This document shows, piece by piece, positions 49,880 through 57,645 of a stretch of DNA of 64,000 nt. The stretch is from the NCBI GenBank assembly GCA_003167215.1, contig PMTV01000014.1, positions 174,287 to 238,286 on the forward strand, written 5' to 3'. Both the position numbers and the translations under genes were made by a program. The notes under the pieces were generated by a model, which worked only from the letters and a program-made list of their open reading frames with translations, made no database searches and had not been told where the DNA came from. This DNA comes from Acidobacteriota bacterium (GTDB lineage: Bacteria; Acidobacteriota; Terriglobia; Acidiferrales; UBA7541). Every line of letters begins with the position of its first letter. Position 1 is the stretch's first letter.

Positions 49880-52582
49880 CTACGGCAAAGGGATGCGATA
49901 CAAGTTGCGGCGGGTGTTGTGGATGCTGTAGGCGTAAACGGACGGGCTAATGGCCGAATCCACGAACCGGGGAATCACCGCTGCACTTTTTGCGTTGGTG
50001 AAGTCCTCGATTTTTGTGATTCCAGCAGGAGGCAAGCTCGGAAGGCCCGAGTCGTGCAGCACCAGTAGCGGGAAGGTGGCATCGCGCGACACCGAGACGG
50101 TAACGTACATGAATTTTCCGGTGACATCCCAACTTGCCCTGCAATAGAGCAGGCAGAGCGGTACAGTCTTGCTTCCATCCGTTGCGATCGCACTAATCTG
50201 AGCCGTGTGCTCCTGGTCGGGACCCAGCCCGCCGGCGATGATCCACCGACCGTCCGGCGACACCGCATACACATCGAACACCCGTTGCGGGGAAATCTTG
50301 CGGCGGCTCGTTCCATCCGCTTTCATGCGATAGAGAAAATTTGCTCCGCCTTCGATGGCGCGGAACACCAGATCGCCATCGGGCAGGAAAAACGGGGAAT
50401 CCTCAATCGCCGTGGAAGAAATATGCACCGGGGAGGAGCGACGACTCGTTGGCGCGACCCAGAGACCGGAACGGCCGCTCTGGTCGTTCATCGTGAATGC
50501 GACTTCTTTTCCATCACGAGAGACTGAGTAGTCTCCCATGGAATAACCGGGCAGGACCCTCTCCACTTTTCCGCCCGTCAGATCCTTAACCCACAGCTCG
50601 TCACCGCGCGTTTGTCCGTTCGTCATCAAGAAATAGAGACTTTTTCCATCAGACGAGAAGGACGCATGGTCCGCATTTCCTTCGGACGAGATTTGATGCT
50701 CGCCGTCCTTGTCGTGCAGCCACACTGTGCTGTCCTCTGAGCCGACCGAGGTAATTAGCGATTTGCCGTCCGCGGACATCGCAATGCCTTCCTGGGAAGT
50801 CGGGCCCGGAGTCACCTGCTCAGGGTCTCCGCTCGGAAAATGTTGCCGCCAGATGTGGGATTTGTCACTTTTCGTCACCGTGAGGTACACCCATTGGCCG
50901 TCGGGCGACCACGCGCCAGAAGTGCAAAGACCGTCGAGGGGACCCACGACGCGCGCGTTGCCAGTTTCCTGGAAAGGAACCACACGGCACGGGAGAAAAT
51001 CTCCGCGAGAGCCCATCTCCACCACCAGCACCCATCGCCCATCAGGGGACAGATAGGAATGATGGATCATGCCGCGCTCGCCGGGAGGCGCGTACACTTC
51101 GCGCCGCTGCCCTCGTCCTTCGTCGGTGGTCACCAGCACCATGTGCAATCCTTCCTTGATCTCAGAAAAAAGCAGCCGCTTTCCATTGTCGATCCAGGTC
51201 AAGGACGATGCGTTTGGAAGCATTATGTGTGGCTCGCCGCCGAGAACCGGAACTTCCCACACGGTCCACGGTATGGCGGTGCCATAGGCAATGAGCGAGT
51301 TGTCGGCGGAGAAGACTGGGTTTAATTTCTGCAAGGCGTCATGCGTGAGCTCGACGGGCTGGCCATCGGGCAGGAACTTCACGCAAATTTGTCCCGCGCC
51401 GTAGAATGAACCAGTCCCGCGGATGAACGCGAGCATCCGTCCATCCGGCGAGAGCGCCGGGTACACCGCGGAGTCCGTGAAAAAAGTTAGCTGCTCCCAA
51501 TCCTTGCTCGCAGGAGGACTACTCCGAGACGAGCGATGCAGGAACAATGTTCCTGCCGCTACCGCCAGCACAAGAATTGCAGCCGCGGCGTAGTAGTAGG
51601 CTCTTTTTCCCGCGCCCTTCGGCATCACGCCCGAAGCCACAGCCTGTGATTCTGCCGTGACCTGTTCCGCTTTTTGTGCGGATGACGCATGCGAGCGGCC
51701 CGACGTGCTGTCGCGTTTCAGCCTCTGTAATTCTGCTCGCACGTCCGACGCGTGCTGGTAACGCAGATTGCGGTCTTTCTCCATCGCCCGGTCGATAATT
51801 TCTTCCAGCTTCGCCGGCAGATCGGGATTCAGGCGCACGGCTGTGACCGGCTCTCGATTCAGGATAGCGTCGAAAATGACCCCGGAAGTATCTCCGCGAA
51901 ATGGCAAAACGCCCGTGGCCATCTCGTATAACACCACGCCGAACGAAAAGAGATCCGTGCGCGGATCCAGTTGCTCGCCTCGCACTTGTTCCGGCGACAT
52001 ATAAGCCACTGTGCCCAGTGCTGTGCCCGGGCTTGTCAGGAATTCATCCGCAGTTGCGGTGGGCAGCGCGGAAACGCCGGGACCTTCGCCGCCGGAGCTT
52101 TGCTTGGCTAAACCGAAATCCAGAATCTTGGCATGCCCGCGCGCGGTGACGAAAATGTTTGCAGGCTTGATGTCGCGGTGCACGATTCCTTTGGCGTGCG
52201 CCGCATCCAGCGCGTCCGCGATTTCAATCCCCAACTCCACAATTTGTTCTAGAGGCAGCGGCTTGCCGGAGATGCGCTGTTTCAGCGTCTCGCCTTCCAG
52301 AAATTCCATGGCAATGAATTGCTGGCCGTCTTGCTCGCCGATGTCGTAAATCGTGCAGATGTTCGGATGATTTAACGCCGATGCCGCCTGCGCTTCCCGC
52401 CGGAACCGTTCGAGAGCGCCCGGGTCGTGGGACATCTCGCTAGGCAGGAATTTCAAACTGACTGCGCGATGCAGCCGCGTGTCCTCCGCTTTATAGACCA
52501 CGCCCATCCCGCCCCCGCCCAGCTTTTCGACAATGCGATAGTGGGAGATTGTCCGGCCGATGAAAGAGGAGGAGTCCGTCAC
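49880..52582 (-). CDS. Ser/Thr protein kinase with PD40/TolB-like beta-propeller
   Basis: This 900-residue Hanks-type kinase is membrane-anchored. The kinase domain (residues 10-275) is intact: VEKLGGGGMGVVYKAEDTRL, the Lys in AVSLKFLP, IVHRDIKPANIFV and KILDFGLAK. One transmembrane helix (YYYAAAAILVLAVAAGTLFL) near residue 335 follows. The outer part carries repeated WD40/PD40 strands (LSPDGRMLAFIRG, FSADNSLIAYG, WSPDGQWVYLTV, SPDGRWVLVVEM) and should sense something in the periplasm. The start is GTG at 52580-52582. It is convergent with metH. Confidence 0.93.
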   Translation of the reverse strand: MTDSSSFIGRTISHYRIVEKLGGGGMGVVYKAEDTRLHRAVSLKFLPSEMSHDPGALERFRREAQAASALNHPNICTIYDIGEQDGQQFIAMEFLEGETLKQRISGKPLPLEQIVELGIEIADALDAAHAKGIVHRDIKPANIFVTARGHAKILDFGLAKQSSGGEGPGVSALPTATADEFLTSPGTALGTVAYMSPEQVRGEQLDPRTDLFSFGVVLYEMATGVLPFRGDTSGVIFDAILNREPVTAVRLNPDLPAKLEEIIDRAMEKDRNLRYQHASDVRAELQRLKRDSTSGRSHASSAQKAEQVTAESQAVASGVMPKGAGKRAYYYAAAAILVLAVAAGTLFLHRSSRSSPPASKDWEQLTFFTDSAVYPALSPDGRMLAFIRGTGSFYGAGQICVKFLPDGQPVELTHDALQKLNPVFSADNSLIAYGTAIPWTVWEVPVLGGEPHIMLPNASSLTWIDNGKRLLFSEIKEGLHMVLVTTDEGRGQRREVYAPPGERGMIHHSYLSPDGRWVLVVEMGSRGDFLPCRVVPFQETGNARVVGPLDGLCTSGAWSPDGQWVYLTVTKSDKSHIWRQHFPSGDPEQVTPGPTSQEGIAMSADGKSLITSVGSEDSTVWLHDKDGEHQISSEGNADHASFSSDGKSLYFLMTNGQTRGDELWVKDLTGGKVERVLPGYSMGDYSVSRDGKEVAFTMNDQSGRSGLWVAPTSRRSSPVHISSTAIEDSPFFLPDGDLVFRAIEGGANFLYRMKADGTSRRKISPQRVFDVYAVSPDGRWIIAGGLGPDQEHTAQISAIATDGSKTVPLCLLYCRASWDVTGKFMYVTVSVSRDATFPLLVLHDSGLPSLPPAGITKIEDFTNAKSAAVIPRFVDSAISPSVYAYSIHNTRRNLYRIPLP

Positions 52583-52754: not shown

Positions 52755-53618
52755 TTATTTCTGGTGCTGCGCTGTTCTGCCGTTGCCGTCCGCCGAGTGC
52801 GCCATGATAGATCGCAGCACCGATTCGAACTTGGCTGCATTAGCGGCCTGTGCCGCGGAAGCGACCTTTTCGTTCGTAGGCAATGCGGAAATGGACAATG
52901 TCTTCGAACTCCGCGCGGAAATGTATTCTCTTCGGGAATCGCTTTCCAGAGCGCGGTATATTCCTGCCTTCAGGTGTTCGAACACCTGCTCGGCGTCCGC
53001 CGACGCCTCAATCACCTCAAACTTATATTCTTCGCTAAGCCGGTCGAACTCCGCCATCAGCGCCGTCTGATAATTGCAAAAGCAGTCGAACATATCCCGC
53101 CCCGGATAAAGATCCATCCCCGACTCCCAATAGTCGAACCCTCGCGAGAAAACAACGCGGGGAATCAGCTGGCCGATGCTGAGCCGCAAATAGAATGTCG
53201 CATCCGGCTTCAACGCCACGCTGTAAATGCTGCGAATCCATTTTGAGTCCATTCCGCGAACGAAGGCCCTCGCCATCAGCGAATAAACGTACCGGTCGGT
53301 CAGTACGATGAACCCGGACCGCAGCGCCGGAACAATCTCGTTCTCTAAACGATCGATAAAATCCGTCGCGTAAAAAAGGCTTTGCGTCACGCGTCCCAGG
53401 TTATTTCCTTCTTTCGCGCGCCGGAGCCCTTCACCCGCCAGCGTCGAGCGCGCCATGCCCGTGTCCAGCACCGCATGTCCCAGCTCTTCGAGCCATGGCT
53501 TCAACAGATCGATCTGCGTCGTTCGCCCAACGCCATCGGTCCCTTCAATCACGATCAGCTTGCCGCTCAGATCGGAAATTCGCATCCCCGGGAGAAGCTT
53601 TCCATATGTCTGCCTCAT
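52755..53618 (-). CDS. Thymidylate-kinase-like protein with altered P-loop
   Basis: This 287-residue P-loop protein is related to dTMP kinase. The Walker A segment is EGTDGVGRTTQIDLLKPWLE, where the catalytic Lys of G-x-D-G-x-G-K-[ST] is replaced by Arg. The DRY motif is kept (IVLTDRYVYSLMARAFVRGM) and the region SKWIRSIYSVALKPDATFYL matches its neighbour. About 70 extra C-terminal residues are Ala/Ser-rich. It is the second gene of a coupled pair (ATGA at 53615-53618). Loss of the Lys suggests weak or no phosphotransfer, or a partner role. Confidence 0.8.
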   Translation of the reverse strand: MRQTYGKLLPGMRISDLSGKLIVIEGTDGVGRTTQIDLLKPWLEELGHAVLDTGMARSTLAGEGLRRAKEGNNLGRVTQSLFYATDFIDRLENEIVPALRSGFIVLTDRYVYSLMARAFVRGMDSKWIRSIYSVALKPDATFYLRLSIGQLIPRVVFSRGFDYWESGMDLYPGRDMFDCFCNYQTALMAEFDRLSEEYKFEVIEASADAEQVFEHLKAGIYRALESDSRREYISARSSKTLSISALPTNEKVASAAQAANAAKFESVLRSIMAHSADGNGRTAQHQK

Positions 53619-54370
53619 CGTTGTACCCTCACGTTCACCGCTTTCTCGAGTTGGGTTTTTACGATTTGTCTCACTTGCGTTTGCTGCACTTCGATGGGCA
53701 ACGTGGCGTCAATCACCGTCAGTCCAAATTCGCTAACCATTTTCTCGTATTCCTTCAGTATCAAACCTTGAAAGAGGCGGAAACTTTCTTCGGGGTCATC
53801 GCTCAAGTCCAAATCCATCCCCGCTTCGTAATATTTAAGTTCATCGCGCCCATCCATCAGCCGCCCGATGGCGGTCTCCAGCGGCACTCGGAAGTAAAAA
53901 GCCACCGTGGGCTTTACCGCAAATCCATAAAGCTCGCGAACCCACTCGCGATCCATTCCGCGTGCCACGTCCCGCGCGAACGCCGTATAGATGTAGCGGT
54001 CGCACAGCACCACCGCGCCCGCTTTCAACAGCGGCAGAATGCTTTTCTCCGTCCGGTCGGCGAAATCGGTGGCGTGAATCAGCGAAAACGTCGCCGCCGT
54101 CAGCATCTTCTTTTTCTTTCCGAACTTCGTCGTGTCTTTCACCAACGGAGAAGAATTCCACTCGCTGAACACCACCCCATAGCCTTTCGATTCAAGCCAT
54201 TTGTGCAGCAAGCTTAGTTGCGTGGATTTTCCCGACCCGTCGATGCCTTCAACGATGAATAATCGTCCGGGAAATCCATCATCGCCACGCGGCTGAGTCT
54301 CCCGCTCAGCGGAGCGGACCGGCAAAAACACCTCGAAAGTTCCCAATCGGTTGCCAGAAGTAATCTCCAT
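53615..54370 (-). CDS. Thymidylate-kinase-like protein
   Basis: This 251-residue P-loop nucleotide kinase-like protein has an intact Walker A (FIVEGIDGSGKSTQLSLLHK), a DRY motif (VVLCDRYIYTAFARDVARGM) and KPTVAFYFRVPLETAIGRLM. About 33 N-terminal residues precede the core, which is longer than normal Tmk. The ordinary dTMP kinase adds phosphate to dTMP. This one shows no typical LID motif of E. coli type, so the substrate is uncertain. It precedes, and overlaps by 4 bp, a paralogue with a K-to-R P-loop. Confidence 0.8.
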   Translation of the reverse strand: MEITSGNRLGTFEVFLPVRSAERETQPRGDDGFPGRLFIVEGIDGSGKSTQLSLLHKWLESKGYGVVFSEWNSSPLVKDTTKFGKKKKMLTAATFSLIHATDFADRTEKSILPLLKAGAVVLCDRYIYTAFARDVARGMDREWVRELYGFAVKPTVAFYFRVPLETAIGRLMDGRDELKYYEAGMDLDLSDDPEESFRLFQGLILKEYEKMVSEFGLTVIDATLPIEVQQTQVRQIVKTQLEKAVNVRVQR

Positions 54371-54874
54371 TGCCCTCTCTCGACGCAGATCTACGCTTCA
54401 ATCGGTTTTCTAGATCGCTCCAGGCTCTGAGTTCCCGGAGCGACCCAATAAAATCCTTCATCTAGTCGCCGTTTGCAGCAACATTCTCAAATCCCTGTAT
54501 CGAACTGGAGACTAGGACCCCGGTCTAGGCAAGTAATTTTGGACAGATATTTTCACTTTGAGTCTCACCTTGCGGATATACACGTTCGCAAGAAGCCGTT
54601 CGTCGCAAGCCATCCCAGAGGGGTGCAATTGGGCACCGCGCAAATTAGTTTCCCGCGCCTGCAGCTCCAGAATGTTGCAGAATGTATTGCAAGAGGGAGC
54701 GGAAATGGGGAATCATCGCCCTCTGCAACCGGTTCCAACCCAGCCTGATTCGCCGCAGGAAGACGCGCCGAGTCCGATCTCAGGCGCAATACAGTTCCAT
54801 TCCTTGGCAGGTCGAACGCGACCGCTCGGGCAAGATTCCGCCGATTATTGCTCGCGACGGTGCAGGGGGATTAC
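54371..54874. other. Intergenic region between the kinase pair and the pseudokinase gene
   Basis: This 504-bp divergent region should hold promoters for both sides. It contains one marginal plus-strand frame (54672-54878, about 68 codons, MLQNVLQEGAEMGNHRPLQP) whose TGA overlaps the ATG of the pseudokinase gene (ATGA). The product has no recognisable features, and I cannot tell whether it is translated. No repeats or RNA structures stand out. Confidence 0.4.
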
Positions 54875-56425
54875 ATGACCGAGGCCGCGACAAAACAGAT
54901 AGGCCAAGTCGTCGACGGGAAATTCCGCCTTGGCCAATTTGTCGGCGGAAATGACCGCAGCTCCGTATTTCTGGTTGATTACGACGGCCAGGAAGTCCCC
55001 AAAGCCGCAATCAAGCTAATCCCGGCCGATTCAGTTGACGCCCCGGCCCAACTCGCCCGCTGGAAACAAGCCGCAAAGCTTTCTCATCCCCACTTGATCC
55101 GCCTCCTGCAAATGGGCCGCTGCGAGCTGGATCACACGCCGATGCTCTACGTGGTGATGGAATACGCCGAAGAGAACTTGTCCCAGGTAGTTGCCCGCAG
55201 GCCGCTCTCTCCTGCGGAAGCGCGTGACATTCTCGGCCCTGTGGCTGACGCGCTCGCCTATGTTCACTCCAAGGGCTTCGTTCATTGCCGCCTGAAACCC
55301 GCCAACATCATGGCCGATGACGATCTTCTCAAAATTTCGAGCGATGGACTCTGTCGCATTGGCGAATACAGCGGCAGCTTGGGAAAGCCCGGCGCCTACG
55401 ATCCTCCCGAAGCAGCCGGTGGAAGAATTTCTCCGGCTGGCGATGTCTGGTCGCTCGGAATGACTTTGGCCGAAGTTTTGACCCAGCGCTTACCCGCGTG
55501 GGAGCGAACCAATCAGGCCGAGCCGTCGCTGCCATCCAACCTGCCACCGGAGATCCTCGATTTGGCGCGCCACTGTTTGCGACGCGACCCGCAATTGCGC
55601 TGGACCGTTGCGGACATCGCCGCGCGCCTGCAACAAAATTCACCCACACCGCCAAAACAGATCACTCCCAGCCCGCAAACTTCGTTTGCCAACCCGCGTG
55701 CCATTGGCGGAGTAGTGCTAGCCGGTGTGGCGTTGGTGGCGATCCTGGGAGGATTTCTGCTCTTTAGGACCCACTCACAAAATCAGCCTGCTGCTTCCGT
55801 CGCTGTCGAGCAGCCACCAGCCCAGCCGGCACTCCAGACAAAAGTTTCGCCGCAAGCTCAGCCGCCAGCGCAGTCAAGAGCTCAGTCGTCGGTTCCTGCA
55901 AAAGTTCAGCCAAAACCAGAGAACAAGCCAGTGCTGTCCGCCAAATCGGCCTCACCCGTTCGGACGCCGCAACAAGCTCCGCCCGTCGCGAAACCGGCTC
56001 CGCAGCCCGTGGCAAATTCCGTGCAAAAGCCCAGCGAGAAAAAACCGCCCGCGAGCAATCCTGCTCCATCACCAATCCCAGTTCAATCCGCCGCGCCCGC
56101 CACAACATCCGCCAGCGGTGTTGTCCGCGGCAAAGTCCTTCAGCAAATCCTGCCCGACGCGCCGCAGAAGGCCCGAGACACGATTCGAGGCAAAGTAAGA
56201 ATCAGCGTCAAAGTTCACGTAAACGAATCAGGCAACGTAACCGAAGCATTGTTCGATTCCCCGGGCCCCAGCCCGTATTTCGCCGACCGCACGCTGGTTG
56301 CCGCGCAACTTTGGAAATTTTCCCCCGCGAAAATCGACGGCCGCAGCGTGCCAAGCGACTGGCTCCTGCGTTTCGAGATCGACCCTGCCGCCATCAACGT
56401 CTATCCCAGAGAAATCGCTCCATAG
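54875..56425 (+). CDS. Membrane pseudokinase with C-terminal TonB domain
   Basis: This 516-residue fusion has a Ser/Thr kinase fold at residues 10-265 with key residues lost. The VAIK-type Lys is kept (KAAIKLIPA), but the HRD catalytic loop reads HCR (137-139, in FVHCRLKPANIM) and DFG reads SDG (156-158, in ISSDGLCRIG). The Gly loop is FVGGNDRSSV. It should not transfer phosphate. A transmembrane helix follows near 277-298 (GVVLAGVALVAILGGFLLF), then a Pro/Gln-rich linker and a TonB-type domain at about 438-510 (VRISVKVHVNESGNVTEALF, AAQLWKFSPAKIDG). The ATG 54875 follows AGGGGG. Confidence 0.85.
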   Translation: MTEAATKQIGQVVDGKFRLGQFVGGNDRSSVFLVDYDGQEVPKAAIKLIPADSVDAPAQLARWKQAAKLSHPHLIRLLQMGRCELDHTPMLYVVMEYAEENLSQVVARRPLSPAEARDILGPVADALAYVHSKGFVHCRLKPANIMADDDLLKISSDGLCRIGEYSGSLGKPGAYDPPEAAGGRISPAGDVWSLGMTLAEVLTQRLPAWERTNQAEPSLPSNLPPEILDLARHCLRRDPQLRWTVADIAARLQQNSPTPPKQITPSPQTSFANPRAIGGVVLAGVALVAILGGFLLFRTHSQNQPAASVAVEQPPAQPALQTKVSPQAQPPAQSRAQSSVPAKVQPKPENKPVLSAKSASPVRTPQQAPPVAKPAPQPVANSVQKPSEKKPPASNPAPSPIPVQSAAPATTSASGVVRGKVLQQILPDAPQKARDTIRGKVRISVKVHVNESGNVTEALFDSPGPSPYFADRTLVAAQLWKFSPAKIDGRSVPSDWLLRFEIDPAAINVYPREIAP

Positions 56426-56658: not shown

Positions 56659-57645
56659 ATGCGAAACTTAAAGATGGGGAAAAACTCGATAACGAAGCAC
56701 TCTATAGCCTTGGGAGCGATGCTTGGTCTTGCTCTCGGCATGATCGCCGGACCGACACTGGCCGCACCGCACAAGCCCAACACTTCAACCGATGTCCCAG
56801 TGAAAATGGTCGTGACGGTGAAGCCGCACCGCGGCGCAGAAGTGCCAGTGGTCGCAGAAGCTGACGTGAAAGTGTATCAGCGTGACCTGCAAAATAAAGT
56901 GACCAGCTGGATCCCGCTTCAGGGAGACCGTGCCGGATTGCAGCTTTTCATTTTGATCGACGACAATTCCAGAGACAGCCTCAGCTTGCAATTCAGCAGC
57001 ATCGCGAAATTTATCGACGAACAACCGGCTAGCACAGCCATCGCCGTGGGTTATATGCACAACGGCATGGTCACCACCGCCCAAGCCCTTACGACGGACC
57101 ACGCCCTGGCCCAAAAAGCGTTGCGCTTGCCCATCGGCGCTTCGGCGGGATATACCAGCCCGTACTTGGCGCTGTCCGACCTGATGAAGAAATGGCCGGA
57201 GACCCAAGACCGCCGCGAAATCTTGATGTTCACCAACGGGATCGATCCTCTCGGCGGCGGATCTTCGAATGATCCATTCACCAACCCCTACCTCGATGAG
57301 GCTTTGAATCGCGCCCAACGAGGAGGCTTCATCGTCTATTCAATTTATACTCCCGGAGCAGGCGTTGCCGGCCGTAGTGGTTTCCGTACAAACCTGGCGC
57401 AGTCTGGCTTGGATCTGCTTGCTCAAAAGACAGGTGGCGAGACCTACTACCTCGGTCTCGGCGCTTCGGTTGATTTCACTCCCTACTTGCAGGATGTAAG
57501 CTACAACCTGAAGCACCAGTACGAGCTTACTTTCCTCGCCAAGGGCGCCAACAAGCCGAGTCTTGAGCCCGTAAAAGTAAAAACAGAAATGCCAAACATG
57601 GGCCTGAGAACTGCGGAAAACGGCTACGTCGGAACCGGTATCTAA
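56659..57645 (+). CDS. Secreted VWFA-related domain protein
   Basis: This 328-residue protein has an N-terminal signal (GAMLGLALGMIAGPTLAAP). The body is a von Willebrand A-like fold of the Acidobacteriota type: FILIDDNSRDSLSLQFSSI carries a MIDAS-like D-x-S, then STAIAVGYMHNGMV, REILMFTNGIDPLGG, and GGFIVYSIYTPGAG. The C-terminus has VSYNLKHQYELTFLAKGANK, typical of the family. It should be periplasmic or secreted; the role is unknown. The ATG at 56659 has GGGAGAAGGG about 10 bp upstream, and ATG 56674 is an alternative. Confidence 0.85.
   Translation: MRNLKMGKNSITKHSIALGAMLGLALGMIAGPTLAAPHKPNTSTDVPVKMVVTVKPHRGAEVPVVAEADVKVYQRDLQNKVTSWIPLQGDRAGLQLFILIDDNSRDSLSLQFSSIAKFIDEQPASTAIAVGYMHNGMVTTAQALTTDHALAQKALRLPIGASAGYTSPYLALSDLMKKWPETQDRREILMFTNGIDPLGGGSSNDPFTNPYLDEALNRAQRGGFIVYSIYTPGAGVAGRSGFRTNLAQSGLDLLAQKTGGETYYLGLGASVDFTPYLQDVSYNLKHQYELTFLAKGANKPSLEPVKVKTEMPNMGLRTAENGYVGTGI

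Follow-up and report, generated by a model that had tools for sequence, protein, structure and literature searches.

Transmembrane pseudokinases conserved in Acidobacteriota, with predicted periplasmic TonB, SPOR or DPBB domains

The window, which is the whole 64,000-nucleotide stretch of an Acidobacteriota genome analysed here, encodes a protein in which a kinase domain that has lost its catalytic motifs is joined through a single predicted membrane helix to a TonB domain. On the sequence comparisons set out below it is a true pseudokinase, the catalytic motifs being lost family-wide whilst the domain is under selection, and the family is retained under strong purifying selection. Judged from domain content, the main lead to function is that the predicted periplasmic module is swapped between members, with TonB_C, SPOR and DPBB domains all occurring in the family. 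We read the window protein as a non-enzymatic transmembrane pseudokinase scaffold that would be anchored to the wall or outer membrane, a reading that we consider an even call. The broader proposal is of a class-wide dead-kinase family with interchangeable envelope modules, which would either read the wall or outer membrane and signal inward, or be positioned from inside, in both cases non-catalytically; we hold this slightly less firmly.

The features of the gene are listed in Table 1. The open reading frame is a real gene and its layout is not a product of chance, judging from its conservation: the start region is kept in orthologues and the same order of domains recurs in homologues from 93% down to 26% identity. 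Pfam places a Pkinase match (PF00069) at residues 43-249 (E = 2e-27), and this profile was matched by all 59 homologues scanned. An AlphaFold2 model built with 59 homologues was confident for both the kinase fold (pLDDT ~95) and the C-terminal domain (pLDDT ~96), with a TM helix at about residues 279-293 and a disordered linker, and the modelled kinase part matched PknB and Aurora A with Z ~25 (VIA-align). The predicted topology places the kinase domain in the cytoplasm, one helix across the inner membrane and the TonB_C domain in the periplasm. The pseudokinase, transmembrane helix, Pro-rich linker and TonB domain of the original prediction are therefore borne out by Pfam, by the model and by the homologues.

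Table 1. Features of the pseudokinase-TonB gene, in window coordinates.
Feature	Position	Strand	Description
Whole pseudokinase-TonB gene	54875..56425	+	516 aa + stop: pseudokinase, TM helix, Pro/Ala/Gln-rich linker, TonB C-terminal domain
Shine-Dalgarno-like AGGGGG	54864..54869	+	From sequence; 5′ of the ATG at 54875
Pseudokinase domain, predicted cytoplasmic	54902..55645	+	Residues 10-257; Pfam Pkinase, AlphaFold2 model, structure match
Lys47, beta3 'VAIK' Lys	55013..55015	+	K or R in 107/113 homologues
HCR at the HRD position	55283..55291	+	Residues 137-139; Asp position His/Arg in 95/113 homologues
SDG at the DFG position	55340..55348	+	Residues 156-158; Asp position Ser/Thr/Ala in 92/113; Phe position Asp in 106/113
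Single predicted TM helix	55709..55765	+	~Residues 279-297; core without His
Pro/Ala/Gln-rich linker, predicted periplasmic	55766..56116	+	~Residues 298-414, ~117 aa; predicted disordered
TonB C-terminal domain	56117..56422	+	Residues 415-516; family motif GPSxYFA

Alignment to PknB places H137-C138-R139 at the HRD motif and S156-D157-G158 at the DFG motif. Both aspartates that mark an active Ser/Thr protein kinase are thus missing from the window protein and the ATP-anchoring Lys47 is retained, exactly as had been read from the sequence beforehand. The protein also lacks the alphaC Glu as well as the G-loop's second and third glycines, losses that the original prediction did not mention, and its beta7-beta8 hairpin is one residue shorter than that of PknB. 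To place these losses in context, 113 homologous domains from Acidobacteriota were surveyed, with TonB, SPOR, DPBB and Cys-rich types pooled. The HRD Asp is absent in 109 of them (the position holds His in 58, Arg in 37 and Asp in 4) and the DFG Asp in 112 (Ser in 69, Thr in 14, Ala in 9 and Asp in 1), whilst the alphaC Glu and the same two G-loop glycines are gone in nearly all. The beta3 position holds Lys in 89 and Arg in 18. The lone domain with a DFG Asp, that of L192, reads DLG and has neither the beta3 Lys nor the HRD Asp. The survey therefore upholds the conservation of the aspartate losses, with the qualification that four members have HGD at the first motif: L118 (from 6983), L119:7988-8773, L124:7245-8030 and L182:7682-8467. 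These four carry SSD or STD at the DFG position and fall within the family in the tree described below, three of them as one clade; they may have regained the Asp or may be half-dead intermediates. Homologues with both motifs intact had been named in advance as the sign that this copy was simply decayed, and not one of the 113 domains has both aspartates.

The Phe position of DFG, residue 157 in the window protein, is acidic in 109 of the 113 domains. Every domain with Lys or Arg at residue 47 has Asp or Glu at residue 157 (107/107), and the acid is lost in four of the six that have neither (Fisher p = 2e-6), but this covariation goes back to only 2 to 5 independent events and does not reach significance once the tree is taken into account. 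It is a hint that Lys47 and Asp157 may be a rewired pair, with a new salt bridge replacing that between Lys and Glu. The retained basic and acidic residues would also suit a nucleotide-dependent switch, as first suggested for this protein, in which ATP or another ligand bound through Lys47 alters the choice of partner, and DYD pseudokinases have been modelled with ATP despite an absent alphaC Glu (PMC12599244). Nevertheless, we regard such a switch as quite unlikely, because the G-loop Gly, alphaC Glu and DFG Asp are all gone, and the few independent events behind the Lys-Asp pattern weaken it further.

Some supposed pseudokinases have proved to be AMPylases or glutamylases, and a pseudo-enzyme with residual or non-canonical catalysis was accordingly considered for this family. 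The kinase fold is kept, His137, Asn144, Glu179 and Asp190 of the C-lobe are strongly conserved across the homologues, and the four HGD members retain one catalytic Asp. Set against these points, the replacement of the HRD Asp by His or Arg in most members and the near-universal loss of the DFG Asp make catalysis of this kind improbable.

The family is maintained by selection. Pairwise Nei-Gojobori comparisons of ten pairs gave dN/dS of 0.03-0.23 for the kinase part, 0.06-0.39 for the C-terminal domain and 0.23-0.59 for the TM-linker part (where dS was finite), so that constraint on the kinase part is similar to that on the C-terminal domain and stronger than that on the TM-linker part. Of 89 genomes of the taxonomic family, 57 carry the gene. 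The pseudokinase family was found in 152 of the 399 genomes sampled from the class (~38%), covering 37 of 136 genera; a phylum-wide sample showed it to be almost confined to that class. The closest homologues come from metagenome-assembled genomes of soil and peat Acidobacteria, and more distant ones from Candidatus Acidiferrum, Candidatus Sulfotelmatobacter, Acidobacteriaceae and Bryobacterales. A locally decayed kinase or a non-expressed gene would account for the lost catalytic motifs, which is the sole point in its favour. Identical losses across the family, dN/dS far below 1 and a reading frame intact in nearly all genomes carrying the gene make that explanation exceedingly improbable, and decay of this single copy is ruled out by the range of dN/dS together with conservation across 37 genera.

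The C-terminal domain gave a TonB_C match (PF03544) at residues 437-496 (E = 4e-5) that, at 24.3 bits, fell just short of the cut-off of 24.6, and the profile was matched by 57 of 59 full-length homologues. Because fold searches with the full-length protein were filled by kinases only, this domain was also folded alone (pLDDT 96). Its top structural matches were the C-terminal domains of TonB from Neisseria, E. coli and others (best Z 10.9), and rows 1-13 of a Foldseek search were TonB-like, with E-values of at least 0.002. By these model comparisons the domain is a true TonB fold.

A closer look at relatives shows that this fold is one of several at the same end of the protein. A SPOR domain (PF05036), which is absent from the window protein itself by Pfam scan, was found by Pfam in members of a sister branch (L185, L186, L193 and L195) and by sequence signature in Acidobacteriaceae-type members (L230-L244). 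It was also recognised by sequence in 20 of 20 further picks (L279-L298), with Pfam SPOR matches at E <= 1e-3 in six of the ten of these that were scanned. The deep member L192 ends in a DPBB lytic-transglycolase domain (Pfam, E = 6e-16). Both types can occur in one genome, as G337 holds a TonB member (L183) and a SPOR member (L286). SPOR domains bind the denuded glycan strands of septal peptidoglycan (PMC6895207). By analogy, contacts with the envelope are the best fitting of the functions first proposed for the window protein, though a swap in relatives is no proof that TonB_C here works as SPOR does there.

The main competitor to a scaffold is a regulated energy transducer, in which an ExbB/ExbD- or TolQR-like motor drives the TonB domain and the pseudokinase gates or addresses it; control of energy coupling had likewise been proposed from the sequence. 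The window protein resembles TonB and TolA in its TM helix, Pro-rich spacer and C-terminal fold, and differs from them in its 257-residue pseudokinase and in having no His in the TM helix. The cytosolic part of canonical TonB is no more than a short tail, and in TonB and TolA a TM His is required, in TonB for work with ExbB/ExbD. A His in the TM core was found in 2 of 97 homologues. Linkers of the TonB type range from 26 to 140 aa (median 78), with 25 of 78 at <=60 aa, and those of the SPOR type from 44 to 75 aa. The outer membrane would therefore hardly be within reach of many members, whereas the window protein, with its linker of ~117 aa, could span the distance. A similar argument from length was made for SjdR, a TonB-like protein that shapes the septa of Anabaena (PMC8262864). 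Among the neighbouring ORFs of ~95 loci, no ExbB/ExbD or receptor gene is linked to the pseudokinase-TonB gene. The host genome does contain three ExbD genes, on contigs 4 and 9, away from the window and with TonB_C genes of their own close by. On sequence evidence this genome uses TonB_C promiscuously as a periplasmic module, for it also encodes a PilZ-TM-TonB_C protein (L262, contig 11) and a trypsin-like protease in which TonB_C occurs twice (L250, contig 12).

The closest parallel to the layout is found in the Agl-Glt gliding machinery of Myxococcus xanthus, where GltG and GltJ have a cytosolic signalling domain, one TM helix, a Pro-rich periplasmic stretch and a C-terminal TonB_C domain (PMC3169522, PMC5349195). 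GltG, with the order FHA-TM-Pro-rich-TonB_C, binds the TolQ-like motor protein AglR in a two-hybrid test (PMC3169522). Its FHA domain may gate or address in the manner envisaged here for the pseudokinase. The layout is unusual but has this parallel, where the original prediction had known of no described system. GltG differs in that its cytosolic domain is FHA and in being encoded with the AglRQS motor, whereas the window gene has no linked motor. Furthermore, the NCBIfam GltJ model scored only 19.5 bits against a cut-off of 450, in the TM-linker part, and no glt or agl genes were seen among the neighbours of the pseudokinase gene; by these signs the protein does not belong to the GltG/GltJ gliding family. 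The shared layout, the true TonB fold, the long linker and the ExbD genes of the host speak for a transducer. We nevertheless consider it unlikely, given the replacement of TonB_C by SPOR or DPBB, the rarity of the TM His, the many short linkers, the unlinked motor and receptor genes and the promiscuity of TonB_C, none of which is final. A scaffold is preferred to TonB energy control because of the module swap, the missing TM His and the lack of linked ExbB/ExbD or any other partner.

A tree of 124 kinase domains, including 13 other active kinases (PknB types of the host's own genome among them), had Acidobacteriota kinases as the nearest rows outside the family. The dead family, together with two intact kinases (L187 and L234), splits from the 13 other active kinases with an SH-aLRT of 100; the split between these two and the dead members has a support of only 83. 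They are the only intact kinases (HRD and DFG) near the family, are far outgroups and have no TonB domain: L187:7280-8674 has a TM helix and C-terminal TPR repeats, and L234 has other C-terminal repeats. As sequences, they are the nearest guide to the role of the ancestor, and read from this outgroup an active membrane kinase may have died once and then exchanged its periplasmic end. DPBB and SPOR members are basal and the TonB group lies further in; the branches are deep and long, and the order of SPOR and TonB_C is not firm. Within the TonB group, at a support of 96, lies a nested Cys-rich type (L137, L139, L144, L145 and others). In these and in L147 a Cys-rich stretch (CDECGKEY) stands instead of TonB_C, and most have a TM helix close to the C-terminus, with no Pfam match to the Cys-rich part.

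The host genome comprises 3.78 Mb on 68 contigs, with the window on contig 19, and encodes about 28 active PknB-type Ser/Thr kinases. Clustering of ORFs across ~95 loci found no constant neighbour of the pseudokinase gene, and no wall or division genes lie beside the SPOR-type members. In the window, two tandem divergent thymidylate-kinase-like genes (52758-54370, - strand) are transcribed divergently from the pseudokinase-TonB gene. This pair had been put forward as possible partners, and probably is not, since apart from the window only the closest orthologue, L087, has it next to the gene. Beyond it lies an intact PknB-type kinase (49880-52582, - strand; HRDIKPAN, DFG) that carries WD40/PD40 beta-propeller repeats. 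This kinase may act upstream of the pseudokinase, but it is not beside the gene in L087. The gene downstream (56659-57645, + strand) resembles the acidobacterial VWA family TIGR03436, at 50.7 bits against a cut-off of 81.25. A defence system was rejected, as the PADLOC matches (mad6, PD-T4-6) are explained by the common kinase fold and there is no defence partner. A plasmid origin was also rejected, plasmid matches being below 35% identity and confined to the kinase half, as was a phage origin, the PHROGs match being to a generic kinase family only.

Several bacterial Ser/Thr pseudokinases offer comparisons. ActPs1-3, GLW, CP1, DYD and DLHK, several of which have a TM helix after the kinase domain, show other motifs and occur in other phyla (PMC12599244). 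Closest in logic is MviN (MurJ) of Mycobacterium tuberculosis, ActPs3, a membrane-linked, ATP-deficient, PknB-like pseudokinase of envelope control with an extracytoplasmic domain behind its TM part; it fails to bind ATP, is a substrate of PknB and recruits FhaA to hold back peptidoglycan synthesis (PMC12599244). The likeness is one of description; the motif replacements differ, and MviN, from Actinobacteria, is a flippase of many helices that has a carbohydrate-binding domain, whereas the window protein has one TM helix and TonB_C (SPOR in relatives). The SPOR branch resembles FtsN/DedD-type proteins, which are bitopic with a short linker and a SPOR domain that binds septal peptidoglycan, but these have no kinase-like domain, and the window protein itself has TonB_C rather than SPOR. 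Membrane pseudokinase scaffolds are thus already known; the Acidobacteriota family with its swapped envelope modules is, as far as we have checked, apparently undescribed. We found no published kinase-TonB fusion, and neither TonB nor SPOR nor Acidobacteria comes up in a 2025 review of pseudokinase families in bacteria (PMC12599244), though the family may carry a number in the kinase atlas behind that review.

In the scaffold that we propose, the periplasmic module would provide an anchor, either on peptidoglycan or on a partner in the outer membrane, with the TonB domain most likely serving as a tether or contact module rather than delivering a power stroke. The dead kinase domain would be a docking platform for cytosolic partners, and the scaffold would probably act together with, or be controlled by, active PknB-type Ser/Thr kinases. 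Cytosolic signalling would in this way be coupled to where the envelope is or what state it is in.

A role is known for few pseudokinases of bacteria, and the Acidobacteriota family is readily recognised and carries modules whose type of binding is known. Septal localisation is predicted for the SPOR branch, and comparison of the SPOR and TonB_C branches could show whether TonB_C serves as an envelope tether outside energy transfer. Moreover, the family would make the Acidobacteriota, which are rich in Ser/Thr kinases, suitable for studying the division of work between pseudokinases and active kinases.
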